From: Candidatus Eremiobacterota bacterium
Lineage (GTDB): Bacteria > Vulcanimicrobiota > Vulcanimicrobiia > Vulcanimicrobiales > Vulcanimicrobiaceae
Direction of reading: 5' to 3'
DNA length: 64,000 nucleotides
NCBI GenBank assembly: GCA_019240525.1
Contig: JAFAYE010000001.1
Span: 2,205,300 to 2,269,299, forward strand
Shown here: piece by piece, positions 38,961 to 55,052 of the stretch
Layout: every line of letters begins with the position of its first letter
Numbering within the stretch: position 1 is the stretch's first letter
Translations under genes and position numbers: made by a program
Notes under the pieces: generated by a model
The model's input: only the letters and a program-made list of their open reading frames with translations
What the model was told of the DNA's origin: nothing
Databases searched by the model: none

Positions 38961-38964
38961 GGGG

Positions 38965-39723: not shown

Positions 39724-39740
39724 TCCAAGCTTTACACCAT

Positions 39741-39776
39741 CGCGCCCGGGGCGCCGATCGGCTGCTGCGAATCCGC
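39741..39776 (-). repeat. Remnant of lipoprotein linker module
   Basis: Minus-strand sequence matches the linker DNA of the GloVer lipoproteins (TCGCAGC.GCCGATCGGC, then CCCCGGGCGCGATG) with a 1-nt insertion that destroys the QPPIG frame. It lies just before the CPBP remnant. Confidence 0.6.
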
Positions 39777-39806
39777 AGATGCGCGCCTCACTTCGCTGTT
39801 GTAATC

Positions 39807-40875
39807 AGGAGTCATATACATAATCGAGCGTAAAGAGGTCTTTACCGTCAGGCTGTTTGCAGATGCCGTACATGACGATGCCTTTGAAAGTTCTTATTAC
39901 GGAATCTAACGCCTCATCTACGGTAACGTTTTGCAGCAGTCTTGGAAGATGAGGTGCTCCCGGGATTGGCCCCGACACAATGATGTCGATTATCCTAAAC
40001 GGCGTTCCGATATTCAGGCGGCGCTTCGCGGCGGAGACTTCCGGTGCGCTTTCGATTGTGACGACGGCTGACGGCGCGCTGTACTGCGCGTATCGACTAA
40101 GGGTCAGAGCCTGTATCCTGGTCTGTAATATTGCGGTCGAAGCGCCTCCAATCGTAATCCTTGTCATTCCGGCTTGGTCTTGTATGACCGTGACATTCGG
40201 ATCGTCACGAAAAATCTGCCGGACAGTGGTTATTCCCGTGGCTTCCTGTCGCGGGGGCTGGAGATATACCGCAGGAAAAAGGAGGTGCTGTGCGCGTGGC
40301 CCGGATGATCCTTGTTCGAATGGCCGGCATTCGCCCGCGTAGTAGACCCGGGCGGTTCCCCCCACGTATGTAAGGGCTGGACGCAGGTAATCGATAACGG
40401 CGTCCATGTGTCCAACGGGTGAAGCATTCTTATCAGATGGGCGATACCACGTGGCCTCGACGAGCTGACCGTCGTATGGGCCGTGAAAGCGAACCTCGAC
40501 CACGGAACGATCCGGTACGCCATACGTCAACCCATTGAATGCACTACACGGCGTCCTTTCCAGAGCAAGCTCAAGATTCACATGGGAGTCTTGAACCGGA
40601 AAAGAGTGAAGGCAAGGGAGGTCGATGTAATCGCGCTGACCTTTGTCCGCTTGAAAATCTACCCTGGTGATTCTGCCGAGGTCATCCGCGGTGATCGTAA
40701 CCATACCGCCTCCGCGTCTGCTCCAACGCCACCAGCGGCCGAAACCTGTGGCAGGTCGCTGCGCATCAGGATGTTCCGAAAGTACCTCCCTAACGTTATT
40801 ACCGAGCGTCACGCCGGCAAGGGTGTGCAGTTCGTCTGCAGCCGTCAAAACAGCCGCTAGCAAAAACGAGATCAT
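39807..40875 (-). CDS. Secreted protein of unknown function
   Basis: About 355 aa (stop TGA at 39805-39807). Signal peptide MISFLLAAVLTAADELHT; mature part begins AGVTLGNNVREVLSEHPDA, resembling a repeat-type periplasmic domain in which a start-of-helix 'LG-x-x-x-x-V' motif recurs, and ends with a secretin/TonB N-domain-like stretch (RLNIGTPFRIIDIIVSG, VTVDEALDSVIRTFKGIVMYG). That second part recalls STN domains, but I do not claim it. Its ATG overlaps the stop of the small lipoprotein by 4 nt, so both form an operon. Confidence 0.72.
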
Positions 40876-41030
40876 TGTTTCGATCCCTTGCGCCTGGGCT
40901 TAGTGGCGTTACCGCTTTGCGGCATCGCGCCCGGCGTGCCGATCGGCGGCTGCGATCCACCGCACGCCGCCAGCAAGACTGCAGCGACGCAGCTGCTAAG
41001 TACGTAGCGGCCAAAGCCCAAGCTCCTCAT
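40872..41030 (-). CDS. Small lipoprotein consisting of signal peptide and linker
   Basis: 52 aa from the ATG at 41030. A 23-residue signal ending VAAVLLAAC with Cys at 23, then the shared linker GGSQPPIGTPGAMPQ and a basic tail (TKPRRKGSKQ). It has the same N-terminal module as the GloVer proteins but no mature domain. ATGA coupling to the secreted-protein gene suggests it is really translated. Confidence 0.65.
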   Translation of the reverse strand: MRSLGFGRYVLSSCVAAVLLAACGGSQPPIGTPGAMPQSGNATKPRRKGSKQ

Positions 41031-41216
41031 AATGCTTCTCCCTCTTCGCCGCATCAACGGATCGGCGGCATAGGATGTTCGGCCTCTGCTGCTCGGTTCC
41101 GCGGAGTAGCCGGGCCGCTCGCCATAAAAGCTGCATCGGCAGCACATCGCCGATCGGCAGGTCTTCGCTGCGGGAGGGTGGCCGGAGCGACCTGCGGTAC
41201 GGTCGAACCGCGGAGC

Positions 41217-41714
41217 ATGGCAATCTACTTTCAAGGCTTTGTATGCGATGAGGACTCCCAGCACTTGCGCGCCTGCATACGCCACCAAAGCGTCGTGTCA
41301 CTCGCGGAGATCGGCATAACCGTAGGCCGAGGCACCCCGGATGAAGCGGTGCTGCATCACGCGCGCGAGGCTGGGCGAGTGCTTATAACTGCGAACGAGA
41401 GTGACTTCGCCGTGGAAATGAAGCGTGCTGCACAACGTTGCACGCCTTCCAAGTGCTACGAAGGCGGCGGGATGATTACAGTCCCGAATGGCATGCAGTC
41501 CTTCCCATATATGACCATGAGCCGGACGATGCGGTTAGGTGAAGCCGAGATTGGATGGGATGATGTTTTCTTCCTTAACCTGCACGTTCAAGTTCAGCGC
41601 GATAGGAAGTTTCGCGTGCAGCGGTTGCCAATCTGCCCGTACTTGCTTAAGGACCACACCGAGTGCGAGACTTGCGCGCATCTCGGTATCTCGATCGAGG
41701 CGGAGCCAGGGTGA
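41217..41714 (+). CDS. PIN-like (DUF5615/Mut7-C type) domain protein
   Basis: 165 aa. The first half has the pattern of PIN-like proteins: CDEDSQHLRACIRHQ, a short strand, GTPDEAVLHHAREAGRVLIT and ANESDF, with acidic residues where the nuclease site lies. Such proteins are toxin nucleases or RNases. The C-terminal part is unlike the short family and ends with CPYLLKDHTECETC, a possible metal knuckle. No DUF433-type antitoxin is next to it. It is coupled by GTGA to a membrane protein gene. Start at 41217 is my choice; the ribosome site is weak. Confidence 0.55.
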   Translation: MAIYFQGFVCDEDSQHLRACIRHQSVVSLAEIGITVGRGTPDEAVLHHAREAGRVLITANESDFAVEMKRAAQRCTPSKCYEGGGMITVPNGMQSFPYMTMSRTMRLGEAEIGWDDVFFLNLHVQVQRDRKFRVQRLPICPYLLKDHTECETCAHLGISIEAEPG

Positions 41715-42163
41715 GCCTTACGTGGCTAATCGGCTGCATTAATAGCCAGGTAGCTCCTACCCAATCTGGCATCGTTCCGGCTTGGACAGCTATTGTCACT
41801 GCTGAATCGAGTGCGGTCCTCGTCATAAGTGTGTTTTGGGCTGCTAGACAGTTTTTTCTTACTCGAAGAATTGCGCGAGTTACCGAGACCGGCCGCCTCG
41901 TGGACAACTGGCTTGAAGAAACTCCGCTTGAAAGGCTCATCGAGAAGCTGGACCTCTGTCCAGAGCCACGTCAAAATGCGCTTGTGCGTGTGATCGAAGC
42001 CACTGCGGCCGCGCAATATTTCGCCGCTTGGCGCGACGTGCGAATCCGCTTTCGCGATCGGGACCTCACACGGATACCCGCACGTTGGCTGCGAGCCGAC
42101 TCGCGGGCATCAGTCCTGACCGGCGCATCCGCGGCACTGGGAAGCCTTGTTCACCCTTGTTGA
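41711..42163 (+). CDS. Small membrane protein coupled to PIN-like gene
   Basis: 150 aa from the GTG overlapping the previous stop (GTGA). One strong hydrophobic helix at about 20-45 (WTAIVTAESSAVLVISVFWA), followed by a charged cytoplasmic part (RIARVTETGRLVDNWLEETP). No family recognised. The tight coupling suggests that the PIN-like protein works with it at the membrane. Confidence 0.6.
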   Translation: MSLTWLIGCINSQVAPTQSGIVPAWTAIVTAESSAVLVISVFWAARQFFLTRRIARVTETGRLVDNWLEETPLERLIEKLDLCPEPRQNALVRVIEATAAAQYFAAWRDVRIRFRDRDLTRIPARWLRADSRASVLTGASAALGSLVHPC

Positions 42164-42243
42164 AAGCATTGGTTAGAGAGTTAAGCGTTGCCGCGGCGAA
42201 CGTTCTCTGCGATTCGGCCGTTCAGCTTTCGGAGGCGTGGCAT

Positions 42244-43518
42244 ATGGGAACCTTAGCTCTTAGTCGCTTCGCGCTTATGGTCAGCGCTGCAACCGTATTA
42301 CTAGCAGCCTGCGGCGGATCACAGCCGCCGATCGGCGCGCCGGGCGCTTTTCCGCAAACTCCGGCGTTCTGGGGCCGCACCAATAGCACGAACTACAAAG
42401 TGGCGTATAGCTTCGCCGACACCACTGACGGCAGTTTCCCCGTCGCTCCCGTAGTCTACGTGGGCGGCACGTTCTATGGCACGACAGAATATGGCGGCGA
42501 ATGCAATACCAACCCCACCTGCGGGACCGTGTACAGCCTAAGCCTGATTGGGCACGAGAAGGTGCTCTACCGTTTTGCTAGCGCCCCAGACGGAACTTAC
42601 CCTCTTGCCGGCTTGACCGACGTCGGTGCCACCTTCTACGGTACGACCGTCGTGGGCGGCTCGAACGTGTGCGGCAACCGCTCGTATTACTTCAGCTGCG
42701 GGACGGTCTTTAGTGTCACGCCGGGCGGCTCGGAGAAAGTGTTGCATAGCTTCGGCAATCCTCCTGACGGCAACTTTCCCGCGGCCGGGCTCATCAACGT
42801 AAACGGCACGCTTTACGGCACGACCCAATTTGGCGGAAAAGGTAGGAAGTGCAACTTCAGCTGCGGGACGGTCTTTAGCATCACGATGAGCGGCAAGGAG
42901 AGAGTGCTTCACACGTTCAGCGGCACCAATGGCGGGGGCCCCGTCGCGCCCCTGATCGCGGTCAAGGGCAAGCTTTACGGCACGACGGAAACTGGCGGCG
43001 CGTACAACGCCGGTACGGTGTTTAGCATGACGCTGAGCGGAAAAGAGAAAGTGCTGCATAGTTTTGGCAACGGAACCGACGGTAAAGAGCCTATGGCTGC
43101 CCTGATCGACGTAAACGGCACGCTGTACGGCACGACGCAGGTTGGTGGCGCGAATAATTGTTATCAATATACCGCCTGCGGGACGGTCTTTAGCATCACG
43201 CCAGGCGGCAAGGAAAAAGTGCTGCATGTCTTCGGCGGATCCGATGGAGCTGGCCCTGTCGCACCCCTAATCGAGGTTAAGGGCACGCTTTACGGTACGA
43301 CGGAAAGTGGCGGCAGCTACTCTTGCGGCGGCGGTGGTTGCGGGACGATCTTTAGCATCACGCCAAACGGCACGGAGACAGTGCTGCACAGTTTCGGCAG
43401 CGGCACCGATGGCGCGAATGCCTACGCTCCTTTGACCGACGTGAATGGCACGCTGTATGGGACGACAGCGCGTGGTGGTACACACGGCTCGGGAACCTTC
43501 TTCGCGTTGAGTCTATAA
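42244..43518 (+). CDS. Seven-repeat GloVer-type propeller lipoprotein 1
   Basis: 424 aa from the ATG at 42244, GGAGG 8 nt upstream. Signal peptide with Cys23 (VLLAAC), shared linker GGSQPPIGAPGAFPQ, then seven repeats of about 50 residues, each with a hydrophobic strand (VLHSFG), DG, a LIxVNG strand and the hallmark G-x-LYGTT-x-x-GG (TIGR03803 'Gloeo_Verruco' family). Seven units fit a seven-bladed propeller. Five repeats have a pair of Cys in the loop behind YGTT (C…CGTVF). Function of the family unknown; likely displayed on the outer membrane. Confidence 0.88.
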   Translation: MGTLALSRFALMVSAATVLLAACGGSQPPIGAPGAFPQTPAFWGRTNSTNYKVAYSFADTTDGSFPVAPVVYVGGTFYGTTEYGGECNTNPTCGTVYSLSLIGHEKVLYRFASAPDGTYPLAGLTDVGATFYGTTVVGGSNVCGNRSYYFSCGTVFSVTPGGSEKVLHSFGNPPDGNFPAAGLINVNGTLYGTTQFGGKGRKCNFSCGTVFSITMSGKERVLHTFSGTNGGGPVAPLIAVKGKLYGTTETGGAYNAGTVFSMTLSGKEKVLHSFGNGTDGKEPMAALIDVNGTLYGTTQVGGANNCYQYTACGTVFSITPGGKEKVLHVFGGSDGAGPVAPLIEVKGTLYGTTESGGSYSCGGGGCGTIFSITPNGTETVLHSFGSGTDGANAYAPLTDVNGTLYGTTARGGTHGSGTFFALSL

Positions 43519-43648
43519 CGCGAGCGATCCACGGCATCAGACGTCCAACCCCGAACTCGTGGACCTCATAGCCGATCGCTTCGCTGGAGTGCGGCGACGG
43601 CGGTGGCCAACATACTAGCCACTACTTTCTTCCGAGGGAACTTTGCTG

Positions 43649-44140
43649 ATGACTACTTTCACTTTGAGCCGCGTCGCACTGAGCATCAACTTAGCCGCAG
43701 CGCTGCTTTCTGCTTGCGGCAGAGCGCAGCCGCCGCTCGGCGTGCCCGGCGCAATCCCGCAAGCGCCAGCTGGCGCAGCTCGGTCCGCGCAAGCACCGCG
43801 ATCGTTCCTATATATGGCTCAATGCTGTGCGGGGTTTTCGTACAAGGGCAGCGTCACACTCTACGATCTCGGACTTACCAAAGACGCTCACACGATAACG
43901 AAGGGTGTCTCAAACCCCTGGGCTCTTACCGTCGACCGAGCCCGACGACTCTATATGGTCGGCTTTGGTTATACGCAGGGCGTCATTGAATTTGACGCCG
44001 GAAGTGACCGACCGTCTCGCCGCGTTAAGCTATCCTACGCATCGGCGGCGGCGACGGACGCTTCCAATAATCTCTACGCTGCATCGTGCCCCGCGTGCCA
44101 ACGCGCCGCGATCCAAATCGATGGCATGGCCGTTGGGTAA
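43649..44140 (+). pseudogene. Truncated beta-propeller lipoprotein
   Basis: 163 aa from the ATG at 43649 with GAGGG upstream. Has the same 23-residue signal (ALLSAC) and linker (RAQPPLGVPGAIPQ) as its neighbours, then about two propeller blades (FLYMAQCCAGFSYKGSVTLYD, PWALTVDRARRLYMVG, ATDASNNLYAASC) and an abrupt end. Full-length relatives at 55.1 and 60.0 kb have more than 300 aa. The 3' end runs into an opposing decayed gene, so the gene was probably cut by a recombination near 44100-44120. It may still make a short lipoprotein. Confidence 0.6.
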
Positions 44141-45340
44141 GAACAAGACATTGCGCGGCCCTTCGTTCCCATCGCCTCCCCACATCATGCCGTTGACGAC
44201 AGAATGAAGACGGGGAACTAGCGCGCTGTAGGCTACGGGAGAACGGGTTTTCAAATCGGCGACGGTAATCCGCCAGTCTAGGGAGTTTGACCCACCAACA
44301 AAAGACCTCCAGGAGCATCTTCGGGTGCTGCGTTTTCTCGAACCATCGGCGAACCCAGGGTAGCGAAGTGATTGAGTCCCCGCGTTCTTTCGTCTCGCGT
44401 AGCACGCGTAAGCCTAACTTTGTCAACGCCGCCGGGTTTGGCGGGCTGCTTTTCAGAGAGACCTGATAGGTCACGCTCTTAGGCCATTCCGCAAACCAGA
44501 GCCGGCCGTAAATGCTGCTGAGGTCTTCACTCACTCGGAAATCATCCGTAACAATCCGCTCCGACGTGATAAACTGAGCGATTCGCGGCGCCCACGCCAT
44601 GATCACGGCCAGGCTTATCTGATCTTGAAATGCTTCGCACAGCCAGTCGCTATACGCCGAAAAGAGGGATGCGCTACCGTCGAGCCGCTCGCTGTTAACA
44701 CCGCCAACAGTAAGGGTTGCTACGGCTCGCGGAATCCGATCGTCGAAAGTTGCGTAGCTCTTACCATTCCGTGCAACGTCGAAGGGCAACATGAGAATCT
44801 TCTGGCTGTGCGAGGAGGCTCTGACCGTGGAACCATTCTCGAACGTCACCGTTATTTGCTCTGTGGGATAATCATCGGTATGGAAGGTTCGGGCACTATA
44901 CTCGTCGCCGAGCCACTTTCGTTGGTTCTTATCCTCATAAAAGAGGCTTTTGAACAAAGTCCTCGGTTCGCTGAGGTCGGCGCCGTCACCAGCGCACTGT
45001 CTGAGACCGACATTCACAAAATAGTCCACGTCGTACTGCTGCGCTTGATCTTCGATGAGCGTTGGCGAGGGAGCTCGTTGCGGCTCAGTAAACAGCGCCG
45101 TCAGTAACGCTTCGATCTTATCAGCGTCCACAGTCTGATCGTCGATCGCGAACGTGTTACCAGTTCGCTGAATTACGGTATGCTCGTACTGCGCTGGGCC
45201 TAAGCCACCCCAGCTCGCTACAATGTCAATGCGAAGCACGCTCGTTGCCGGAGGGGTCGCCACATGCGCCAAGCCACTGCCGCCACGGAGACAGCAGTGC
45301 TTGCTACGATGACTGCGAGGTAAAGGCCGAAAAGCTTCAC
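44030..45340 (-). pseudogene. Decayed membrane-anchored hypothetical protein
   Basis: The long central frame (to 45272) encodes a protein-like segment (SVLRIDIVASWGGLGPAQYE, EPRTLFKSLFYEDKNQRKW, EDLSSIYGRLWFAEWPKSV). Both ends look shifted. Upstream, another frame from the GTG at 45340 gives a good membrane helix (LFGLYLAVIVASTAVSVAAV) that stops at 45218. Downstream, near 44300, a third frame continues sensibly (SLDWRITVADLKTRSPVAY, then GNEGPRNVLFLPNGHAIDL) while the main frame becomes basic and random. I therefore read it as one gene with two frameshifts. No family recognised. Confidence 0.5.
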
Positions 45341-45683
45341 CAGGCTACCATGCCGGTCGCGCCGATCAGTGCGCGCTCCGCCTTTCATTACGACCGATTA
45401 CTTTACGACCGATTACTTTCCGACAGGTACCGCCAGATCGCGGACTGCACGGCAACATCCGAGTTGTCAATCACGATAAGAGTGCGCGCGTCAGAGCTCG
45501 CAATGCCTACGGGCCTCTTTTATATCGCACATCTCTGGAGGCACACGAAACTGCTCTTGCCAGGGGGCCGCTTCTTATCCTTTCGGAATGCGACGAGCTT
45601 TCTGGGTGGCTCTTCGTGAGCTTCCGGATTCTAGCGGCTTGCTCGGTCGGGCCGTGGGCGTTTATTGGCGAACGTTTTTATAG
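45341..45683. other. Intergenic region with short tandem repeat
   Basis: 343 bp. A 15-bp unit ACGACCGATTACTTT is repeated exactly twice at 45390-45419, followed by a partial third. No gene that I can support; the plus-strand frame here has neither a ribosome site nor protein-like composition. Upstream signals of the hydrolase gene should be at the right end. Confidence 0.5.
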
Positions 45684-47201
45684 GTGCACCACTTGAGGAG
45701 GCTTTGCGGAAAGTTGACACGACGATTAAACGTTCGTAAGACTCGAGTACTCACTCTGATCGCGACACTGATTTACACTGCTTTTGCGCTGCCGGTCCCA
45801 ACGTCGCCTCAAGAGCAAAGCCTAGGCCTCCAGAGCGCGGCTTGCCTAATTGGAAAAGCTGAGCTTCCTGCGGAATGTGGTACCTTCGCCGTCTACGAGA
45901 ATCGTCGTGCGCATTCCGGCCGCATTATCAAGCTCAGCTTCATTGCGCTGCGAGCGTCTCGCAGACGTGAAGGTACCATCGCGTTCTTAGCAGGCGGTCC
46001 AGGTCAAAGTGCGACCGCCTTCGCTCCGATGGTGGCCGACCGTCACTTTGGGCAAGCGCTATCGACCTTACGGGCCAGTTACGACATTCTCTTTCTGGAC
46101 AACCGCGGTATGGGGCACTCGAACCCTTTCCCGTGCGATTTCGCGCCGCGAACTGATCCGAGCGCCTATTTCTTGCAGCTTTGGCCGGATGCGCTGGTAG
46201 CAGGATGCCGAGCTACGAGTTCGTCCTCTCACGTTCTTGCTCAGTACAATACCGCGAACGCCACCGACGATCTCGATGACCTCAGAGCAGCATTGCGTAT
46301 AAAGGATCTCGTTTTATATGGAGGATCTGACGGAACATTCTTTTCATTTATCTATCTGCGACGGCACCCCGCGTCAGTCAAAAGCGCTGTCCTGTCGGGC
46401 GTGGCGCCCCCGGGTTTTCAGCCTTTGCCGGGTGCACCCGATGGAGCGCAAAGAGCGCTAAGCGATCTGATAGCGGATTGCGAGAGCGATTCCGTTTGTC
46501 ATTCACATTTTCCCAACTTCGGGCACCAGTTTTACGCTGTTTTGCACCGTTTCGATACCGGTCCGATCCCAATGACAATTAAAAGTCCTGGTAGCGGTGA
46601 TCTGCCCGTTCGACTTTCAAAAGAGGTCTTCGTTGACCAAATGCGCCAGGTCTTGGACGACCCAAACAACGCCGCATATATCCCTTACATTATCGACAAG
46701 GCCTATAATCGAGAATACGGGCCTCTTGTCGAAATGATTAATGCCGTAAGTCTCGGCTTAGCGAACGCCCTAAATTGGGGTGCTTTTCTGTCATATAGCT
46801 GCTCCGATTGGATGCCGTTCGTCACCGCTAGCGAAATGACGGCTGCGGCACAGGGCTCGTTCGCGGACGAGCTTCGCTTTATGGCGCAAAAGCGAGCCTG
46901 CCTTATATGGAATGTACCGCCAATGCCTCCAGACTTCAACAAACCGGTCACAAGCGCTGTACCAATATTGATGATCGATGGTAGCGACGATCCGGCGACC
47001 CCGCCCCGCTATGCTCAAGAGGAACTGCCGTATTTGAAAAACGCAAAACTGATCATTGTGGAGGGCGCCGGGCACGCCGAGGAACACGCTTGTACGGACC
47101 GGCTGATCGTGCAGTTCATCGAGTCGCAATCTGGAGCCAATCTGCCCAGCGCCAGTTGTAAGAACAGCTTCGCTCGTCCGCCGTTCGCGACTTCAGGCTA
47201 G
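45684..47201 (+). CDS. Secreted alpha/beta hydrolase (tripeptidyl-aminopeptidase-like)
   Basis: 505 aa when started at the GTG at 45684; a later TTG near 45710 behind GAGGAGG is possible. Signal-anchor at about 20-38, then the hydrolase fold: oxyanion GGPGQ (104-108), LDNRGMGHSNP, nucleophile Ser215 in YGGSDGTFFS, acid Asp435/436 in DGSDDPATP and His464 in GAGHAEE. A TAP-like C-terminal domain is included. Relatives are secreted peptidases or esterases of the S33 clan. In most relatives the elbow is GGSYG; Asp replaces Tyr here. Copy 2 of the 3'-end repeat follows the stop by 24 nt. Confidence 0.85.
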   Translation: MHHLRRLCGKLTRRLNVRKTRVLTLIATLIYTAFALPVPTSPQEQSLGLQSAACLIGKAELPAECGTFAVYENRRAHSGRIIKLSFIALRASRRREGTIAFLAGGPGQSATAFAPMVADRHFGQALSTLRASYDILFLDNRGMGHSNPFPCDFAPRTDPSAYFLQLWPDALVAGCRATSSSSHVLAQYNTANATDDLDDLRAALRIKDLVLYGGSDGTFFSFIYLRRHPASVKSAVLSGVAPPGFQPLPGAPDGAQRALSDLIADCESDSVCHSHFPNFGHQFYAVLHRFDTGPIPMTIKSPGSGDLPVRLSKEVFVDQMRQVLDDPNNAAYIPYIIDKAYNREYGPLVEMINAVSLGLANALNWGAFLSYSCSDWMPFVTASEMTAAAQGSFADELRFMAQKRACLIWNVPPMPPDFNKPVTSAVPILMIDGSDDPATPPRYAQEELPYLKNAKLIIVEGAGHAEEHACTDRLIVQFIESQSGANLPSASCKNSFARPPFATSG

Positions 47202-47225
47202 AGCTCTTTATCATGTGTGTGGCAT

Positions 47226-47376
47226 CCCCGCGCTCGCGAGGCCGCATCGCGCTAGAAGATAAGCTAATCTCGCAGCCACGGGGCCCGTCGCCGATCAGCG
47301 TTGCCTATTGCGGCCTCGTAGTCTAGCAGCGACTCCTAGCGGCGTGCTCGTAGTCTCGCAGTTTTAGATCGTGCTG
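47226..47376 (+). repeat. 3'-end repeat, copy 2
   Basis: Plus-strand reading starts CCCCGCGCTCGCGAGG and GCCGCATCGCGCTAG, identical to copies 1 and 6, then diverges in the middle (AAGATAAGCTAATCTCGCAG) and resumes with CGCCGATCAGCG; the distal end (CTCGCAGTTTTAGATCG) matches the far end of copy 1. It begins 24 nt after the hydrolase stop in the same polarity. Confidence 0.75.
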
Positions 47377-47552: not shown

Positions 47553-47593
47553 GCAGAACGCAGGTCGCTCTCTCTAGTCTTCACCATCCAGCA

Positions 47594-48223
47594 TCAAGGT
47601 GCTGACGCGACATTTCTCCGAGGCATGAGTACCAAGTCGGCCGCTTCCTCGGCGTCATTGAGGAGCCTCTCACGTGACGTGCCCATCCGTGCCCGCATCG
47701 TCAGACCGCGGACAAGGTCGACGGCCTGGCTCGCTCGCGCGGCTACTGGAAAGTCTGGCGGAACTTCTCCCGCGCTCATCCCATCGCGGAAACGGCGTTC
47801 CACTAGCTCGATGGCGCCATCTGCCGCCATCTTCACGAACTGGTGGACATCTGCATCGTCCACGAGTGGCGCGACGCACATGAGAAGACATCCCGGGGCG
47901 GATCCTTCCTCGGTCGCTGTTTCTACGGCGTTCCTCATGAAGGCGCCCAGCGAGTCGCGAAGTGTGCTCGGCGAGTGGAGTGCCGCCGCAGCAAGGGCGC
48001 CTTTCCTCTCGGCGTAGGCCTTGAGAACGCGCAAGAACAACGTCCGCTTGTCCCCGAAGATGGAATACAGGCTCGGCCGGCCCACGCCCATCCCGGCGAC
48101 GAGATCGTCCACCGTCACTGCATCGTAGCCCTTAGACCAGAACACCTGGATCGCGTTTCCCAGCGCGGCGCTCTCATTGAAGCTGCGCGGGCGTCCGCGC
48201 GGCCTGGCAGCCTTTTGAATCAT
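47594..48223 (-). CDS. TetR/AcrR-family regulator
   Basis: 209 aa. N-terminal HTH (about 15-60: GNAIQVFWSKGYDAVTVDDL, GVGRPSLYSIFGDKRTLFLR), then a helical ligand domain of the YcdC-like kind (PGCLLMCVAPLVDDADVHQF). Divergent from the SDR gene, with repeated TTCGAA-containing sites between them; probably represses itself and the SDR. The pair looks more like a transferred regulator/enzyme module than like its lipoprotein-rich surroundings. Confidence 0.9.
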   Translation of the reverse strand: MIQKAARPRGRPRSFNESAALGNAIQVFWSKGYDAVTVDDLVAGMGVGRPSLYSIFGDKRTLFLRVLKAYAERKGALAAAALHSPSTLRDSLGAFMRNAVETATEEGSAPGCLLMCVAPLVDDADVHQFVKMAADGAIELVERRFRDGMSAGEVPPDFPVAARASQAVDLVRGLTMRARMGTSRERLLNDAEEAADLVLMPRRNVASAP

Positions 48224-48226
48224 TTA

Positions 48227-48286
48227 GTTCGAAAATCCTTGCGCTTGACCATCTGATCCATTATTGTACCAAAAGGTTCGAAAATC
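48227..48286. promoter_or_regulatory. Candidate TetR operator sites
   Basis: The 11-mer GTTCGAAAATC occurs at 48227-48237, touching the TetR start, and again at 48276-48286; flanks CCTTGCG and CGCAAGG are inverted to each other. Position in the divergent promoter region fits operators for the TetR protein. No experimental motif is known to me. Confidence 0.4.
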
Positions 48287-48350
48287 GCAAGGCGGACCCG
48301 GCGGTGCGGCGCCGACCCACTCGACCTAGGGATTCGTCACGGAGAAGCGC

Positions 48351-49320
48351 ATGGAACATTCGAGAGCTCTCGTCACCGGTACCACCTCCGGGCTCGGATA
48401 TGCGGCAGCCCGCTTGCTCGCCGCCCAGGGCTATCGCGATGTCATCGTCACCGGGCGCAGCCTGGGCCGGGTCCGGGAAACGGCCGCTCAGCTCGCGGTT
48501 GAGACGCACACCCAGGTCTTCACACCCCTGGAGCTGGATCTGAACGCGTCGGCCAGCGTTCAGTCCGCCCTCGCCGAACTCGTCAAGCGAGGCCTGCCGA
48601 TCGATTTCCTACTGCTCAACGCCGGAATGGTCGGTGGTAAGAAGCGCGTGCTCACTGCTGCGGGCGTCGAGGCGGCTCAGGCGCCACTCATCGGCCATCA
48701 TCAACTGACGGTCGGGTTGCTCCGGGCCAATTTACTGAGTCCCCACGCGCGGATCGTTATCGCCGGCGCGGAACCTGCCCGTGGGGACGTCCCTATGTTC
48801 AGCTACACCGACGTGGCGGCTCTTGCGGCCAAGCAATTCCTCGGAGACCGCAGCGCCGCGGTGGAAGCCCTGATCCGCAACGGACCGAACGTGAAGTACG
48901 AGCCCAACCGGGCGTATGCCGACGCGAAACTCATCATTGCTTGGTGGGCGGCGGCGCTGGCGCGCCGGCTGCCCTCTGGCATGGCCGTCTACGCCGTTGC
49001 GCCCGGCAGCGCGCCCGACACCCAGGCGGTGCGAAACCTTGGTCCAGTCATGAAGTCGCTGATGCCGCTAATAAAGCTCATCCCCGGCATGTCCCACGCC
49101 GGAGACGGCTGCTCGTCGCTACCTCCAAGCATCGAAGTTCGGAACCGACGTCTCGGGGCAATTCTTCGCCTCGGCGCCCAAGAAGCTCACCGGCCCAATC
49201 GAGGCGATGCGCCACCCACACTTGCACGATCGCACCAACCAGGAAGCCGCGTGGCAGGCCGTCGCCAAGGTCTCCGGCGCCGACTGGTCTGGCCCTTCAT
49301 CTTTGACCGCGGTGTCTTGA
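48351..49320 (+). pseudogene. Short-chain dehydrogenase/reductase with frameshift
   Basis: SDR enzyme: NAD(P) motif GTTSGLGYAAARLLA (10-24), NAG in LLLNAGMVGG, YADAKLIIAWW where the Tyr-x3-Lys pair lies, and PGSAPDTQAVRN. Around 49100, after LIPGMSHAG, the frame becomes random, while the +1 frame continues normally (ARRYLQASKFGTDVSGQFF, ASAPKKLTGPIEAMRHPH) to TGA at 49318-49320. The span has one base more than a multiple of three, as expected for a 1-nt insertion. A sequencing error cannot be excluded. Divergent from and probably controlled by the TetR gene. Confidence 0.8.
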
Positions 49321-49363
49321 AGGACCGCCAGCGCTGCGAGCAACTTGCGAGGGGCGATGCTGG

Positions 49364-49442
49364 GCGATCGGCGTCGGGCTGCGCAACTGCGAGGCCCTAC
49401 GCCGCTAAGCGCCTAGCGCGATGCGCGCTCGTGGGCGCGGGG
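49364..49442 (-). repeat. 3'-end repeat, copy 3
   Basis: Minus-strand reading from 49442: CCCCGCGCCCACGAGC, GCATCGCGCTAGGCGCTTAG, CGGCGTAGGGCCTCGCAG, then GCGCAGCCCGACGCCGATCG. Weak similarity may continue leftwards to about 49330. It lies 21 nt behind the stop of the minus-strand secreted protein gene and faces the SDR remnant on the other side. Confidence 0.85.
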
Positions 49443-49463
49443 AGGCGCCGGCCCTACAGGCTA

Positions 49464-49976
49464 CTAATGAGGCGCGTAACTATCGACGATTGCTGCTATC
49501 CGCTGGGTCAATGCAAGACGATATTTGTAAGGGTTCGGCGGGCTTGCTGGAAGGGTCGCATCCAATGCCGCGACTTGGTCGTAAATGCCCTTCCAAGTCG
49601 GTCCGGCGAAGCCGGTGGCCATGCATGCGAGTTCCATCGCGGCGCGCAGGGCATGAGCGCTAGTAGGCGTCTTCGGCGGTGACTTCATTATCCAGATCGT
49701 CGCAGCTCCCGATTTCGCGTCGATGCCGACGAAATGAACAATGGGATCGTAGGTTGGCATGTCCATAACGGCCTTGCCGACGACGTTTATTGTGATATTA
49801 GGACTCGCTTCCGCGTCTTTGGTAGCCTTCAGGAGCGTGGCCACATCTTGGGCAGTAAACTGAATGTCGCCCGCGGACGGAGCTCCCGGGGATGCGCTCG
49901 GCGATTGAGCAAGAGCCGGCGTAGCAACACCGATGCCAAAAGCCAACACTAAAGCGCTGAACCTCATGTGTGACAT
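49464..49976 (-). CDS. Secreted protein of unknown function
   Basis: 170 aa. Signal peptide MSHMRFSALVLAFGIGVATPALAQ-like (cleavage after ALA at about 23), a short Ser/Pro/Ala linker, then a compact domain (DIQFTAQDVATLLKATKDAE, ITINVVGKAVMDMPTYDPIV, ALTQRIAAIVDSYAPH). AGGCG precedes the ATG at 49976. No family recognised. Confidence 0.7.
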   Translation of the reverse strand: MSHMRFSALVLAFGIGVATPALAQSPSASPGAPSAGDIQFTAQDVATLLKATKDAEASPNITINVVGKAVMDMPTYDPIVHFVGIDAKSGAATIWIMKSPPKTPTSAHALRAAMELACMATGFAGPTWKGIYDQVAALDATLPASPPNPYKYRLALTQRIAAIVDSYAPH

Positions 49977-50074
49977 TTCAGCGGACGCCTTTAGCTCGCC
50001 TTTTTCAGATCACACCACGCGTTAAACTGTGTGCTCGCTGCGAGGCAGTTGCCTCGATGTTGCAATGCACAACG

Positions 50075-50140
50075 CCACTCGGCGCCGGGCTGCGCAACTG
50101 CAAGGCTTTACGGACGCTTAGGCCAGCGCGGCGGGTGCGA
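50075..50140 (-). repeat. 3'-end repeat, degenerate copy 4
   Basis: Retains the central GCGCCGGGCTGCGCAACTGC and AAGGCTTTACGG pieces, but the CCCCGCGCTCGCGAGG end is lost. Not adjacent to a stop codon. Confidence 0.5.
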
Positions 50141-50400
50141 GCAAGCTAGGCGTTCCGCACTTCTGATGCCGCAATTCGCTCATCGCCGCGGCCGACTGGA
50201 AAGCGATCATCATTTACATTTTCGAAGTTGCAGTGAAAACCATGAAGGCCGTTCTGTAGCGCGGCCGCCCCGTGCAAACTTTACAGCGCCCTTTGCAAAA
50301 AATCCGATACGTAGAAAACGCTATGTGGTCGTAAGGTTTTTACCGTAAGGCTGCAATGGGTGGCTTTGCGCGATGCATTCGACGTGCATCGATCCGCGTT

Positions 50401-50481
50401 GCGATTGGTGCCGGGCTGCGCAGCTGCGAGCCGCACTAAACCGCTAAGCGTCTAACGCGATGCGGCGTCGCGAGCGCGGGG
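50401..50481 (-). repeat. 3'-end repeat, copy 5
   Basis: Minus-strand reading from 50481: CCCCGCGCTCGCGACG, CCGCATCGCGTTAGACGC, TTAGCGGTTTAG, GGCTCGCAGCTGCGCAGC. It lies 7 nt behind the GloVer 2 stop in the same polarity. The inner stem keeps pairing through a U-G wobble. Confidence 0.85.
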
Positions 50482-50488
50482 TTGCGAT

Positions 50489-51757
50489 CTACGGTGAGAG
50501 TGTAAAGACCGTTCCGCAATGATTGAGGCGCCTGCATCCTGAGCCGCCGGTTTCTGTCGTGCCGTAGAGCGCGCCGTTTACTTCGAGTAAGGCGGCTTCC
50601 GGCTCCAAACCATCCGAGGCGCGAACAAAGTCGTGCAGCACCATCTCCACGCCAGTCGTGCTGACGCTATAAATGGTTCCGCACCCCGCGCCACAACTCG
50701 AACCCCCGCCATAACTCGTTGTACCGTATAGCGTGCCGTTCACGTCGATCAATCCCGCGTCGGGATATTCCCCATCGGCGCCGCCAGTAAAGCTATACAG
50801 AACCTTCTCTCTGCCGTCGGTGGTAACGCTGTAAACTGTCCCGCAGCCGATATTGAAGTCGCATGACGTCCCTCCGCCACCAGTGGTCGTTCCGTACAGC
50901 AAACCTTTGACGCTCACCAGGCCTGAAGAAGCATTCTCGCCATCGCTCCCGCCCATGAAGCTGTACAGCACCTTCTCTGCACCCCGCGGGCTTATACTGT
51001 ATATCGTCCCGCAGCCCGTGGGATAGCAGCCTGGACCACCCCAGATCGTCGTGCCGTACAGAGTTCCCTTTACGGCGATCAAGCTGGCCTGCGGCATGTA
51101 GCCATCGGAATTGCCGGTGAAACTGTGCAGGATCTTCTCCTTACCGCTCGGGCCAATGCTAAAGACGGTTCCGCAGCTCGCGCAACCTGATCCACCCAAG
51201 TCGGTTGATCCATAAAGCGTACCGTTGAAATCGATCAGGCTTGCCTCTGGGTTCGCTCCATCTGGCGACCCGGTAAAAACGTGCAGTACCTTCTCGGTGC
51301 CGCCCGTGGTTATGTTGTAAACTACACCGCAACCGCCGAGAGAAGCGCCGCAACTGCCGGCGCCGCCGTTGACCGTCGTGCCATATAGGATGCCGTCCAA
51401 ATCAACCAACCCCGCGCGCGGATTGGCCCCATCCGCCCCGGCGAACGAATACAACACTTTTTCAGCCCCGCTTGGGCTGACGCTGTAAACGGTTCCTTTC
51501 TTGTGCGTGCCGCCATATTCGGTCGTGCCGTAGAGCGTGCCGTTCACCTCGATCAAGCTGGCTCGCGGGTGCGCTCCGGTCAATGTGTGGAAGCGATACA
51601 ACAGCTTGTACGATCGCGCCGATATGTTGGTTTGCGGCATCACACCGGGCGCGCTGATCGGCGGCTGGGATCCGCTGCAGCCCGCGAGCAATGCAGCCGC
51701 GAGCAATGCAGCGACGCTGATCGTAAGCGCGGATCGGGGGAAGGTTTTCATCTGCAT
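50489..51757 (-). CDS. Seven-repeat GloVer-type propeller lipoprotein 2
   Basis: 422 aa. Signal peptide with Cys27 (ALLAGC), extended by a duplicated 13-bp unit (CGAGCAATGCAGC twice near 51690), shared linker SGSQPPISAPGVMPQ, then seven YGTT/YGST repeats (GTLYGTTEYGG first, GALYGTTETGG last). Cys pairs occur in the loops of six repeats (for example CGASLGGCG and CDFNIGCG). ATG at 51757 or 51751. Copy 5 of the 3'-end repeat follows its stop. Confidence 0.88.
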   Translation of the reverse strand: MQMKTFPRSALTISVAALLAAALLAGCSGSQPPISAPGVMPQTNISARSYKLLYRFHTLTGAHPRASLIEVNGTLYGTTEYGGTHKKGTVYSVSPSGAEKVLYSFAGADGANPRAGLVDLDGILYGTTVNGGAGSCGASLGGCGVVYNITTGGTEKVLHVFTGSPDGANPEASLIDFNGTLYGSTDLGGSGCASCGTVFSIGPSGKEKILHSFTGNSDGYMPQASLIAVKGTLYGTTIWGGPGCYPTGCGTIYSISPRGAEKVLYSFMGGSDGENASSGLVSVKGLLYGTTTGGGGTSCDFNIGCGTVYSVTTDGREKVLYSFTGGADGEYPDAGLIDVNGTLYGTTSYGGGSSCGAGCGTIYSVSTTGVEMVLHDFVRASDGLEPEAALLEVNGALYGTTETGGSGCRRLNHCGTVFTLSP

Positions 51758-52157
51758 CGTCTCCAGAAGCTGACCTGATTACCTGCTGGGAAGTTCGGCG
51801 ACGGCAGCCAGTTCCATCGCAACACGCCGAGTGCTGCACCGGATCGCCCCTGATCCGCAGGTGCGGGAACGCTGGCGATATTATTTCCGAAGCCTGTCCA
51901 GCTTCCGGAGGATGCTGATTCGCTATCTATTTAGAGCATTCGACGCCGACAGGGGCGCGAGCATTCGGGCCAGCGCGTCGAGGCGTGGTTCAAGCGAGAG
52001 ATCGTGCCGAAGCTCGATGCCTTCACTCTCTCGGATATCGCGGCGGCGGCCCGTGCAAAGGTCCCGCATCCCCGCCATTGGCAAGCACTGCACAGTTGAT
52101 AGATCACACATAGAGGCGCGAGGACCTCAGGGCAAACGTCGTCAAAAAAGAACGCCG
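51758..52157. other. Region upstream of GloVer 2 and the 52-kb operon
   Basis: 400 bp between divergent genes. It contains a short remnant coding stretch (51935-52099) and otherwise should hold two promoters. I see no other structure. Confidence 0.5.
51935..52099 (+). pseudogene. Fragment of an HTH-containing protein C-terminus
   Basis: From a TAG at 51932 to TGA at 52097-52099 the frame reads REHSGQRVEAWFKREIVPKL, then DAFTLSDIAAAARAKVPHP and RHWQALHS. The WFxREIVPxL plus PHPRHWxAL pattern looks like the C-terminal helix-turn-helix end of a larger bacterial protein from which an internal segment is missing. No start codon suits it. The parent family cannot be named with confidence. Confidence 0.35.
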
Positions 52158-52991
52158 ATGGGGGTTTGGGGAGCCGGCATCTATTCGGATGACACAGCGA
52201 CAGATGTTCGCGACCAATATCGCGACTATCTAGCCGAAGGGTTGGATGGCATTGCGGCTACTGACAAGCTTCTCGTCTTATTCAAGGACTCGCAGGATGA
52301 CGCAGATGATGGACCGCCATTCTGGCTGTCACTGGCGACAACACAGTTTCGCTACGGTAGGCTAGAAGATCGCGTCCGCGACCGAGCTCTAAAAATCATA
52401 GACGGCGGAAGCGACATGGCCCGATTCGAGCGCAATGGAAAACTCAAGCGCGCGCGTTCGCAGGTCCTCCAGAGACTACGCGCTCAACTTGTCGGACCGC
52501 AGAGACAGGCTGCAAAAGTCCGTCGCGATATTCCGAGCGAATGCGACTGGGAGCCAGGAGAGGTGGTCGGGTTCAAGCGCAATTCAGGGGAATGGATAGC
52601 GCTGCACGTCCAAGGCATCGGTGAACAGCGCCGCAGCCGCTATCCCATTGTGTGTGTTCTCGACGCGCCCTTCGAGCAAATAGAGCAGGCTGATCAGCAT
52701 ACTCCCGTCTTGCGAACTTTGGTCATTCCCCGGCGCTATTGTCGGGTCCCGGACAAAGACAACTTTGGACCTCACCCTTTTTTCACGATTTTTGGCCTAA
52801 AAAAGCGTGATTTGACTTCCGAGCGGGTACGGAGGCCCGGAAAAAAGATCGCGCCCAAGATTACCGTTGAGGGCCACGGCATCCCGCCGCTAACGCCGTG
52901 CACTGCTTGGAAGTATCTTGACAATTTCTGCGACGAAGATCTTGAACGGAACCATAAATTGCCCGATCAGCACGACGCTACAAACGATTAA
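52158..52991 (+). CDS. Uncharacterised protein with MGxWGxG N-terminus
   Basis: 277 aa from the ATG at 52158. The start MGVWGAGIYSDDTATDVRDQ is the signature of DUF4259-like and related uncharacterised proteins of bacteria. A middle part is rich in Arg/Lys, and the C-terminal half contains DWEPGEVVGFKRNSGEWIAL and RYPIVCVLDAPFEQIEQ, beta-rich and hydrophobic. Function unknown; in other genomes such proteins often lie in immunity or accessory clusters. First gene of a six-ORF, closely coupled run ending at 54755. Confidence 0.7.
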   Translation: MGVWGAGIYSDDTATDVRDQYRDYLAEGLDGIAATDKLLVLFKDSQDDADDGPPFWLSLATTQFRYGRLEDRVRDRALKIIDGGSDMARFERNGKLKRARSQVLQRLRAQLVGPQRQAAKVRRDIPSECDWEPGEVVGFKRNSGEWIALHVQGIGEQRRSRYPIVCVLDAPFEQIEQADQHTPVLRTLVIPRRYCRVPDKDNFGPHPFFTIFGLKKRDLTSERVRRPGKKIAPKITVEGHGIPPLTPCTAWKYLDNFCDEDLERNHKLPDQHDATND

Positions 52992-52993
52992 AG

Positions 52994-53098
52994 ATGGGAA
53001 ACTCCACCCCGTCCTTCTCTTGTAGCATAGAAGCCGCGCTGCTCGCACCCAACGGCGGATCGCAGCCGCCGATCGGCGCGCCGGGCGGTGCCACGTGA
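52994..53098 (+). CDS. Mini-ORF carrying the lipoprotein linker (34 aa)
   Basis: ATG at 52994 lies 2 nt after the previous stop, and TGA at 53096-53098 overlaps the GTG of the next gene as GTGA. The product ends LLAPNGGSQPPIGAPGGAT, that is, the linker of the GloVer lipoproteins with the lipobox Cys replaced by Pro-Asn. It could serve as a translational coupler, or be a relic of an inserted repeat. No separate ribosome site seen. Confidence 0.4.
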   Translation: MGNSTPSFSCSIEAALLAPNGGSQPPIGAPGGAT

Positions 53099-53598
53099 CT
53101 AACAACTCGCAAATGGCGCGCGACTTTGCGTATTACGCTGAGCTTTATGTTACCTGGTTCGATGAGGTGGTATCTGATGAGGCAACGCCGCTTAGCATGC
53201 GCAGGCTTCACGAGGTACTGGCATTACTGCAGGCTGCTGCCGCGCGGCTTACGGCAATTCCGCCGGACGACGAAGCAGATAGCGATTTCGAGGGTCGCGA
53301 CGTTGTGGGCGCCCTTAGGGCAAAGCTACCCACAGACGCATACAGCGTCGTGTTTGATCCCTTCGAGTACGATCCGCTCGAAGTGAACCCGCCAAAACCG
53401 GTGATGGCGACGATCGCCGACGATCTTGGCGACATCTACAACAATGTGAAGGAAGGCCTAGCGCTATACCGGGCCGGTCAAATCCAAAACGCCCTATGGC
53501 ACTGGCATTTCAGCTACTATGCTCACTGGGGTCGGCACCTGAGCAACGCGCAGCCGGCCATCTGGCAATACTTACGTGAAGGAAACTCGGTACAGTGA
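53095..53598 (+). CDS. DUF5063-like protein
   Basis: 167 aa, GTG start. Conserved features are the N-terminal ARDFAYYAELYVTWFDEVV, a central YSVVFDPFEYDPLE, and the family hallmark ADDLGDIYNNVKEGLALYRA followed by ALWHWHFSYYAHWGRH. Known only as a domain of unknown function, mostly helical. Overlaps its neighbours on both sides by 4 nt. Confidence 0.75.
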   Translation: MTNNSQMARDFAYYAELYVTWFDEVVSDEATPLSMRRLHEVLALLQAAAARLTAIPPDDEADSDFEGRDVVGALRAKLPTDAYSVVFDPFEYDPLEVNPPKPVMATIADDLGDIYNNVKEGLALYRAGQIQNALWHWHFSYYAHWGRHLSNAQPAIWQYLREGNSVQ

Positions 53599-54008
53599 CA
53601 GATTTTCTTAGCGAAGCTAACCGTGTAATGGACAAACTTTCGTCGGATTCACGCATATCGGCGATTGCTTTGACATCGGACGCGTATGAGTATCTGATTT
53701 TGACTGACTCGACTGATGAGTATTTTGCGAGCGATGCGTGGGCCGCCGATTTTGACTTACATCTTCGCGAGCCGGAAGAACTCGGTGGGCTTATGATGCG
53801 CAAAGGAAATCTCGCTGGGGCTGGCGTTACATTCCTGTTCGGTCGCGCCACGTGGGCGAAGATCGACCCCATCGATCCCGACACCGAAAAGCTCGCTCGA
53901 TCTGGTCTCTTCGCAGTTCACGATCCGAAGGGCCTAATACGAGCTTTGCAAGAGTTTTGTACACCAAACATGATCCGGTTCGCCGACGATTTCCAATGGA
54001 CAAAATAG
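53595..54008 (+). CDS. Uncharacterised protein, possibly degenerate nucleotidyltransferase fold
   Basis: 137 aa; GTG overlaps the DUF5063 stop (GTGA). Sequence such as RISAIALTSDAYEYLILTDS, GVTFLFGRATWAKIDPIDPD and GLFAVHDPKGLIRALQEF has the order of strands seen in aminoglycoside-type nucleotidyltransferases, yet the GS…DxD metal motif is not present. I treat the resemblance as weak. Its end overlaps the next mini-ORF. Confidence 0.6.
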   Translation: MTDFLSEANRVMDKLSSDSRISAIALTSDAYEYLILTDSTDEYFASDAWAADFDLHLREPEELGGLMMRKGNLAGAGVTFLFGRATWAKIDPIDPDTEKLARSGLFAVHDPKGLIRALQEFCTPNMIRFADDFQWTK

Positions 54009-54106
54009 AGTTAACGGGCCCATCTCTTGCACCCAACGGCGAATCGCAGCCGCCGATCGGCGGGTCGGGCGCGATACCACTGCAGTTGATCACTTGTGAA
54101 CTATAA
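53996..54106 (+). CDS. Mini-ORF carrying the lipoprotein linker (36 aa)
   Basis: ATG at 53996 lies inside the end of the preceding gene; TAA at 54104-54106 lies inside the start of the following one. The middle reads SLAPNGESQPPIGGSGAIP, closely matching the 52994 mini-ORF (APNG in place of the lipobox AACGG). Two such bridging ORFs in one operon make chance less likely. Confidence 0.4.
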   Translation: MDKIELTGPSLAPNGESQPPIGGSGAIPLQLITCEL

Positions 54107-54755
54107 AGCCACGCTCCGCTGGACAGTGACCTTTATGGCAGCAGCCGCCACAGGCGCACTCCTGTTCACATTCCATCAGATAACCTGGAACCGTGATTTT
54201 ACGCTGTTAGACCAGCCTATGCGAGTCGCTGCTAATCGCACGATAACCAATTTATTTACTGTACCGGTGAACGCGCCTTATGAGATCAACATCTATGTCC
54301 AGGCAAAGGTACCGTACGCTGATTGCTTACTTGGCCAAAGCGGTTATCTCCAGGAACGATGCAGTCCGTATTACCGAGTCATAGACGTGGTCTGGCTCGT
54401 CCACGATAGGGAAGGTCGAGTTCTTCGGCAGGGCGTGTCGGAAGGGACCTGTTGCACTTACACTGTCGACGAGCATAAGAATCCGGTAGTTTTCACAACG
54501 TTAGGCGACTTTAGACTGGCGGTGGGCACCACGGCCTACCTTGAGTTGAAGAACAGGCGAGATGTATCGCAACTCGAAAACCTCGCGCCACGCATTACTG
54601 TGCGACGCAGTGATCCCATGGAGTCGGAGCTGGGCCTAACGGCGTGGTCATTGCTGGGCATAGCCTCTATGCTGCTCATTAGCCTAGTGCTACTCGTTGT
54701 GACTTGGTTGCAATACCGCGCGTCACAAGCGAATCGTCAGTACAGTACGCGATAG
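54096..54755 (+). CDS. Membrane protein with two helices and an external domain
   Basis: 219 aa, GTG start at 54096. Helix 1 at about 10-28 (TVTFMAAAATGALLFTF), an extracytoplasmic beta-rich region with five Cys (ADCLLGQSGYLQERC, GTCCTYTVD), and helix 2 at about 182-206 (TAWSLLGIASMLLISLVLLV). No family recognised. Last gene of the 52-55 kb run; copy 6 of the 3'-end repeat follows 24 nt later. Confidence 0.68.
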   Translation: MNYKATLRWTVTFMAAAATGALLFTFHQITWNRDFTLLDQPMRVAANRTITNLFTVPVNAPYEINIYVQAKVPYADCLLGQSGYLQERCSPYYRVIDVVWLVHDREGRVLRQGVSEGTCCTYTVDEHKNPVVFTTLGDFRLAVGTTAYLELKNRRDVSQLENLAPRITVRRSDPMESELGLTAWSLLGIASMLLISLVLLVVTWLQYRASQANRQYSTR

Positions 54756-54779
54756 GCATGTTCTCTATGTTCCATTTCG

Positions 54780-54858
54780 CCCCGCGCTCGCGAGGCCGCA
54801 TCGCGCTAGGCGCTTAGCGGCTCGCCGGTGCGCAGCTGCGCAGCCCGGCGCCGATCGC
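54780..54858 (+). repeat. 3'-end repeat, copy 6
   Basis: Plus-strand CCCCGCGCTCGCGAGG, CCGCATCGCGCTAGGCGC, TTAGCGGCTCGCCGG, then GCGCAGCTGCGCAGCCCG and GCGCCGATCGC. Same polarity as the upstream membrane protein gene, 24 nt behind its stop. Confidence 0.88.
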
Positions 54859-54944
54859 AATGCCCATTACAGCCTTGCAGCGCGAGGCGCAAATCTCCCA
54901 TGCTGGTGTTTGCCGCGCCGCCAGCTACCTAGCAGGGTAAGCGG

Positions 54945-55052
54945 TTATAAACTCGCGTCGCGAGCGATTGTACGAGCGGCTTGCGGCAGCGCACACCGCG
55001 GGCCGATCGGCGGCTGCAATCCGGCGCAGGCCGCGACAAATATTGGAACCAC
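54945..55052 (-). pseudogene. Lipoprotein N-terminus remnant
   Basis: 35-residue frame from a GTG at 55052: hydrophobic VVPIFVAAC (lipobox-like), then AGLQPPIGPRCALPQAAR and a stop. Equivalent to the signal/linker module of the GloVer lipoproteins without a mature domain. No ribosome site, and a stop lies shortly upstream, so probably not expressed. Confidence 0.5.

Follow-up and report, generated by a model that had tools for sequence, protein, structure and literature searches.

A nucleotide-conserved linker that seems to be a hinge for swapping promoter-plus-export signals between lipoprotein genes in one genus of Candidatus Eremiobacterota

Why do lipoprotein genes with different mature parts carry the same DNA around their lipobox? 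The question is raised by a window of 64,000 nucleotides (nt) from a Candidatus Eremiobacterota bacterium (contig JAFAYE010000001.1, positions 2,205,300 to 2,269,299; "the window" denotes this whole stretch), where four lipoprotein genes carry lipobox-linker DNA (consensus TGCGGCGGATCGCAGCCGCCGATCGGCGCGCCGGGCGCGATGCCGCAA) and a further four pieces of it lie detached. The linker seems to be a hinge for swapping promoter-plus-export signals between genes for unrelated surface proteins, the signals sometimes landing before other genes. In the explanation that we consider probable, a portable 5' module of lipoprotein genes has been joined repeatedly to different mature domains within one genus, with the linker as the hinge. 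The module would consist of about 60-240 nt of upstream DNA, a signal peptide of ~22 residues with its lipobox, and a linker of ~48 nt.

The copies were located with an nhmmer DNA model of 63 positions covering lipobox and linker, which was trained on 11 in-frame copies from the window's own genome (G000; 2.8 Mb in 5 contigs, 97% complete). In the window, the model matched the genes at 40915-40976 (-), 42298-42359 (+), 43704-43763 (+), and 51630-51691 (-), and the detached pieces at 39730-39775 (-), 53053-53087 (+), 54037-54078 (+), and 54980-55040 (-). All of the genes and pieces in which an earlier note on this DNA had placed the module are thus present, with slightly corrected coordinates. 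A core 16-mer (up to 3 mismatches) had 17 matches in the window against 3.7 expected, and 0 of 100 shuffles reached 17; GCCGATCGGC had nine copies against 0.5-1.1 expected, six of them linker copies and three elsewhere (4296, 29518, and 41149). Across G000, a 22-mer (up to 3 mismatches) gave 16 matches, two of which (1234322 and 2303671, inside genes) resemble chance, as compared to 0 for the reversed control. The 18 strong model matches in G000 (E < 1e-5) were grouped in the window and at its right edge (2.245-2.271 Mb), at 2.687-2.691 Mb, at 0.70 Mb, and at 0.757 Mb, and all lie behind lipoboxes or close to such genes.

In the genus, 343 model matches were distributed over 18 genomes, with at least one in 17 of them and the highest counts in G016 (82), G003 (58), and G009 and G013 (30 each). 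Outside the genus, matches were marginal (best E 1e-4) and limited to 7 of 23 genomes, with one or two in each. The 15 contig stretches matched by the exact 32-base linker pattern were all from Candidatus Eremiobacterota. Sixty stretches around the better matches were sampled together with the window, giving 161 model hits. The Cys codon is retained in 154 of them, and in 132 of these the frame stays open for 90 residues or more, counted from that codon. Blastp linkage sorted the mature parts of these 132 into 13 classes, three of which were afterwards discarded as frameshifted or chimeric. A repeat of the comparisons on 125 genes, without these classes (8, 9, and 11) and the double-module row L090_m2490 (four rows in all, being frameshifted, chimeric, or duplicate), left the conclusions unchanged; the dropped rows still count in the comparison of 3076 pairs, the within- and between-genome identities, the alignment edges, and the mosaic-gene counts below. 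The module precedes about ten unrelated mature classes, namely NHL-like propellers, GloVer proteins, glycine-rich proteins, another propeller class, three phosphoesterases (PF04185; lowest E 7.8e-49), a DUF642 protein, a beta-helix-like protein (match below cut-off), and others that matched no Pfam family. In this lineage, most GloVer lipoproteins have other linkers.

The first reading of the earlier note, that an export module is shuffled onto new mature domains, is supported in agreement by four tests, on upstream DNA, homology edges, recent cases, and the NHL tree. Near-identical domains have unrelated signals, and unrelated domains have related 5' regions. The mature domains of L096_m4130 (G016) and L104_m2682 (G014) match at 96% over 950 nt, from +73 and +127, respectively, and their signals and spacers differ; L085_m4039 and L088_p1222 (both G003) match at 87% from the Cys codon onward, with unrelated signals. 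Conversely, when the linker was excluded, 70 of the 125 genes had an upstream homologue of at least 60 nt. The upstream-homologous pairs (n = 231) included 118 of different class and 166 of different genomes, and the homology was at least 100 nt in 52 of the 118 different-class pairs, the best of which was 86.4% over 243 nt between a DUF642-class gene of G003 and an NHL-class gene of G014. Genes with different mature domains have common 5' DNA of up to ~240 nt at 80-86%, which stops at the linker. No association between 5' type and mature class was observed: the best upstream homologue was of the same class for 31 of the 70 genes, against 27.7 +/- 5.0 with shuffled labels (1452 of 5000 as high).

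The homology edges lie at the linker. These edges were taken from the alignments given here only, because the edge distributions of the mosaic scan are bounded by its own selection limits. Among same-class alignments reaching at least +600 nt, 24 of 33 start at or after -20, and different-class alignments through the linker (n = 3289) end mostly between +25 and +60. Homology does not break off at the lipobox as a matter of course, since the pair L102_m1506/L117_m2545 is colinear, with homology from about -600, and a tandem pair with linkers like repetitive extragenic palindromic (REP) sequences (L195) is colinear from -63. Some of the genes are also mosaic in structure: 17 combine the 5' part of one gene with the mature part of another, and the switch interval overlaps -15 to +60 in 12 of the 17 (midpoints, 10 of 17). 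One of these 12 is the GloVer 1 gene of the window, whose switch falls in the interval from -12 to +36 nt relative to the Cys codon.

The linker is conserved at the nucleotide level. Synonymous identity, the share of identical codons among aligned codons for the same residue (125 genes), was 0.77 and 0.76 in the linker for same- and different-class pairs, respectively, 0.43 and 0.41 in the signal peptide, and 0.40 in the mature domain, and synonymous sites are fixed along ~45 nt of the linker. In 129 genes, Gly3 is encoded by GGA in 93% (17% in mature parts) and Ser4 by TCG in 93% (18% in mature parts). The nucleotide comparison of module and mature domain that the earlier note had proposed showed greater identity in the linker DNA than in the mature-domain DNA in 3003 of 3076 same-class pairs. 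Confined to the window, this identity test is weak (GloVer 1 against GloVer 2: linker 0.81, mature 0.66, signal 0.63).

Because the linker genes had been picked by DNA similarity, a control set was built from mature-domain searches, containing 99 lipobox NHL and GloVer genes of G000 and G013 identified by their mature domain; its stretches came mainly from these searches, with linker-fetched stretches of the two genomes added. In 16 of the 99 genes, the linker had half or more of the consensus residues, 153 of 181 codons equalled the consensus at matching residues, and the distribution of linker similarity had two peaks with some intermediates. The two peaks indicate that the uniformity of the linker is not merely a search artefact. 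In addition, an upstream homologue was found for 6 of the 16 linker genes, compared to 3 of the 83 others (Fisher 0.0004). The propeller repertoire of G000 is very large (93 NHL-model and 147 GloVer-repeat matches in 2.8 Mb, several per gene), and many of its propeller genes have a lipobox.

Simple duplication and decay would explain these genes if one ancestral linker gene had been copied, its mature domains had diverged beyond recognition, and the detached pieces were dead 5' ends. Some truncated modules are plainly decayed or nonsense (54980-55040 in the window; L084_p2694, L138_m1481, and L141_p4072 elsewhere), and the copies are clustered in arrays on one strand (74 of 89 pairs of neighbours less than 3 kb apart), which speaks for such a history. 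However, the module is found on unrelated folds and enzymes, unrelated signals precede near-identical mature domains, and the synonymous sites of the linker are unsaturated, whereas those of the mature parts are near saturation. Linker presence also does not track the NHL mature-domain tree (64 domains, 11 linker-bearing rows), on which it is unclustered, with 10 changes against a shuffled mean of 10.3 (245 of 500 as low) and at least 5 linker changes forced by the starred branches. These observations contradict duplication and decay, which we regard as an improbable explanation of the whole.

The centre of the linker DNA is a palindrome, and the earlier note had offered, as a second reading, a palindromic repeat domesticated as a linker. 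This reading found no support: the strong copies in G000 are tied to lipoboxes or lie near such genes, the arms do not covary, and the right half is the less conserved. An RNA hairpin (CGCC-GATC-GGCG) was rejected, as departures from pairing are mostly breaks, although the fraction of the 128 distinct sequences that pair is 0.82-0.86 across the four positions; compensatory change is almost absent from the arms, about 17% of cells are unpaired, and the right half (GGC 70%, GGT 23%) is freer at synonymous sites than the left. The GGSQPPIG DNA was likewise rejected as a palindromic mobile repeat, because its strong matches in G000 are confined to lipoboxes or their vicinity instead of lying at many unrelated positions in and between genes. 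No copies inserted elsewhere in unrelated genes of G000 with clean empty sites in relatives were seen. Carriage by a phage or virus was rejected, since an exact 23-mer had no match in viral contigs.

Rickettsia palindromic elements are palindromic DNA read in frame inside proteins, and a domesticated palindromic or REP-like mobile repeat might similarly have inserted after lipoboxes. A genuine REP-like repeat is indeed present: CTTCGACAGGCTCAGGGTGACA has 207 matches in G000 (up to 3 mismatches), compared to 0 for the reversed control, and is read in frame as the linker of 4 of the 18 G000 GloVer genes (LRQAQGD/LPQAQGD or LRQAQDD). These copies indicate that the tether behind the lipobox tolerates repeat DNA as protein. 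For the GGSQPPIG linker, however, its strong matches are not scattered in or between other G000 genes, the homology continues through the linker into the signal and upstream DNA, and the viral contigs gave no exact 23-mer match, so that a mobile repeat is a very unlikely source. In the window, REP-like copies at 56429-56450 and 61101-61122 are the in-frame linkers of two GloVer lipoproteins. The former belongs to GloVer 3 (56354..57604, +), which the earlier note had not included and which has a related signal region with the repeat at the linker position. Two further REP-linker GloVer genes at 2.70 Mb (L195) contain several tandem copies.

Several observations weigh against the portable module. 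The NHL tree is weakly resolved, the mosaic switch lies outside the linker zone in 3 of the 17 mosaic genes and is ambiguous in 2, and in the two-genome control all six linker genes with an upstream homologue pair within the same class (NHL). The genomes G001-G017 are mostly fragmented metagenome assemblies, although G000 and G013 (5 and 9 contigs, respectively) show the pattern too. Finally, linker identity is practically equal within and between genomes (0.78 and 0.77 for the same class, 0.77 and 0.76 for different classes). No homogenisation within single genomes is thus seen, and conversion within genomes alone does not explain the uniformity of the linker; interspecies transfer or constraint at the DNA level is also needed. 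Such constraint could, in principle, suffice without much shuffling if the linker DNA or RNA were itself functional, as an intragenic operator or an mRNA element, and the equal identities, the synonymous fixation across ~45 nt, and the detached copies directly upstream of other genes are consistent with this. The nearly uncompensated palindrome arms with their unpaired cells and the freer right half argue against it, and it leaves the homology edges at the linker and the mosaic genes unexplained. We consider nucleotide-level constraint unlikely as the explanation in its own right, but it could act alongside shuffling.

Among the linker genes of the window, GloVer 1 (42244..43518, +; TIGR03803 E 2.4e-67) reads GGSQPPIGAPGAFPQ. 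The linker GGSQPPIGxPGAMPQ, which the earlier note had placed before GloVer 1 and the 52-aa lipoprotein, is present before both, except that GloVer 1 has F and not M. The close variants described before GloVer 2 (50489..51757, -; Cys27; TIGR03803 E 9.7e-70) and the truncated propeller lipoprotein (43649..44140, +; weak ScyD/ScyE match below cut-off) read SGSQPPISAPGVMPQ and GRAQPPLGVPGAIPQ, respectively. The 52-aa lipoprotein (40872..41030, -) is a complete signal-lipobox-linker (GGSQPPIGTPGAMPQ) followed by 14 residues, and its stop overlaps (ATGA) the start of an open reading frame (ORF) of 356 aa (39805..40875, -), the product of which matched no Pfam or NCBIfam family; a 67% identical homologue of this gene in G003 lacks the module.

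The detached linker remnant at 39730..39775 (-; DSQQPIGAPGAM) lies between the 356-aa gene and a CPBP/Rce1-like protease pseudogene with one TAG stop (38965..39723, -). An intact homologue of the pseudogene in G010 (L119; 71% identical, PF02517 E 2.3e-22) sits behind a complete signal-linker ORF with an ATGA overlap. In the module at 53053..53087 (+; AALLAPNGGSQPPIGAPG), the lipobox Cys is changed to Asn, and the stop of its short ORF overlaps (GTGA) a DUF5063 gene (53095..53598, +; PF16702 E 1.5e-21), whose G003 homologue has no upstream module. Its sister at 54037..54078 (+; LAPNGESQPPIGGSG) belongs to an ORF overlapping the start of a 219-aa ORF (54096..54755, +; weak Golvesin_C match below cut-off). 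Since the two share the Asn variant (GCACCCAACGGC), either one came from the other or both came from a common copy. The piece at 54980..55040 (-; VAACAGLQPPIGPRCALPQA) reads as the decayed remnant of a lipoprotein gene's 5' end, in which lipobox and linker are kept without a mature domain.

The earlier note had considered that the intergenic copies might be 5' ends of deleted genes, which fits 54980-55040 but not the 52-aa lipoprotein or the 53053 module, both being short ORFs whose stops overlap unrelated genes. Judged from their sequence, the detached pieces are a mixed set of decayed 5' ends and putative leader ORFs that overlap an unrelated downstream gene. Among 27 truncated modules, 7 overlap a following ORF of at least 100 aa by ATGA or GTGA, whereas the same overlap occurs in 3 of 125 full-length genes and at 1226 of all 19885 stop codons; omission of one frameshifted gene leaves 6 of 26 truncated modules (binomial 0.004). 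Translational coupling was rejected as a general rule and is regarded as no more than suggestive; the truncated modules before intact unrelated genes are possibly translationally coupled leaders. Because modules stand before intact unrelated genes, not all detached modules are debris.

Related arrangements were seen in other genomes. In L295 (2960-3090; G013, contig C9), an apparently doubled linker remnant lies directly 3' of a partial homologue of the 356-aa gene, as does the remnant in the window, and overlaps (GTGA) a 192-aa ORF. In L090 (2259-2490; G003), tandem modules form one open frame, the first truncated and the second, 196 nt further downstream, complete. Separately, a GC-rich intergenic repeat resembling CGCTCGCGAGGCCGCATCGCGCTAGGCGCTTAGCG was noted by eye in both orientations at gene ends of the window (38880-38970, 47225-47300, 50400-50480, and 54781-54860).

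How might the portable module have moved? The 5' halves and mature halves would recombine at the linker, so that many of these lipoprotein genes would be mosaic. Ordinary homologous recombination, or gene conversion, may make the exchanges by way of the ~50 nt that the genes share, probably with transfer between species. Some exchanges would leave truncated modules, part of which decay and part of which persist as short ORFs that run into the start of an unrelated gene. The linker protein may be a mere flexible tether, and the benefit would be that new surface domains acquire a promoter and an export signal that already function.

About 48 nt is probably enough to seed homologous recombination. 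When the linker clusters (2.245-2.270, 2.687-2.691, 0.70, and 0.76 Mb) were compared with the PF00589 matches of G000 (0.04, 1.65, and 1.72 Mb), no tyrosine recombinase was found near them; serine recombinases were not searched. Recombination or gene conversion is favoured because ~48 nt probably suffice, because no tyrosine recombinase is nearby, and because the palindrome shows neither compensation nor symmetric conservation; homologous recombination is the likeliest mechanism, though unproven. A more far-reaching reading is a cassette system, in which some enzyme would use the linker as a dedicated recombination site to exchange modules, domains, and whole unrelated genes, the latter including the DUF5063, CPBP protease, and 356-aa genes. 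Signal-linker modules and linker scars would then separate interchangeable genes, and the orders module-gene-linker-gene in the window (41030-38965 and 53053-54755) would be such cassettes. We give this possibility little credence.

The acquisition of new surface proteins by bacteria is usually visible solely after the event. Here, within one genus, the same promoter-signal-linker module appears on unrelated domains, with the hinge legible in nucleotides and failed or half-made joins adjoining, so that module capture as the birth of exported proteins would become countable. This opens the question of whether a short conserved DNA linker is kept for promoting further exchange. A search of the open-access literature found nothing on Eremiobacterota lipoprotein modules or on terminal reassortment with lipoprotein signal peptides.

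Unlike Rickettsia palindromic elements, the present linker is confined to a single position within lipoprotein genes and travels together with the 5' DNA beside it; a closer counterpart to those elements is the set of REP-like linkers in four GloVer genes of G000. GloVer 1-3 of the window pass the family cut-off of TIGR03803 (222.5, 230.2, and 242.7 bits against a curated 44), a family defined by the mature repeats and not by the linker. In the Mycoplasma vpma/vsp system, a multigene family of lipoproteins combines varied mature parts with conserved signal-peptide and 5' untranslated regions, and expression is switched by inversion, for which the Xer1 recombinase uses a 72-nt site lying before the start codon (PMC2268961). 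The conserved 5' and signal regions and the diverse mature parts are similar here, whereas the hinge is within the coding region past the lipobox, and no tyrosine-recombinase match of G000 lies near the clusters.

Terminal reassortment was reportedly described by Stavrinides, Ma and Guttman in 2006. In type III and type IV effectors, a terminus bearing an export signal is fused to unrelated functional sequences, yielding new exported proteins (PMC5675462, PMC2668190). Similarly, one export-signal terminus is found here on unrelated functional parts (about ten mature classes), and its similarity exceeds what could be expected had the attached parts descended vertically with it (up to 86% over 243 nt between different classes; linker identity above mature identity in 3003 of 3076 same-class pairs). 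Relative to the effectors, the terminus differs in being a lipoprotein signal plus linker, with export predicted from the lipobox and hydrophobic signal; the joint differs in being a nucleotide-conserved hinge of ~48 nt in repeated use; and up to dozens of copies occur per genome in an uncultured soil lineage. The process resembles terminal reassortment, with a nucleotide-conserved hinge added.

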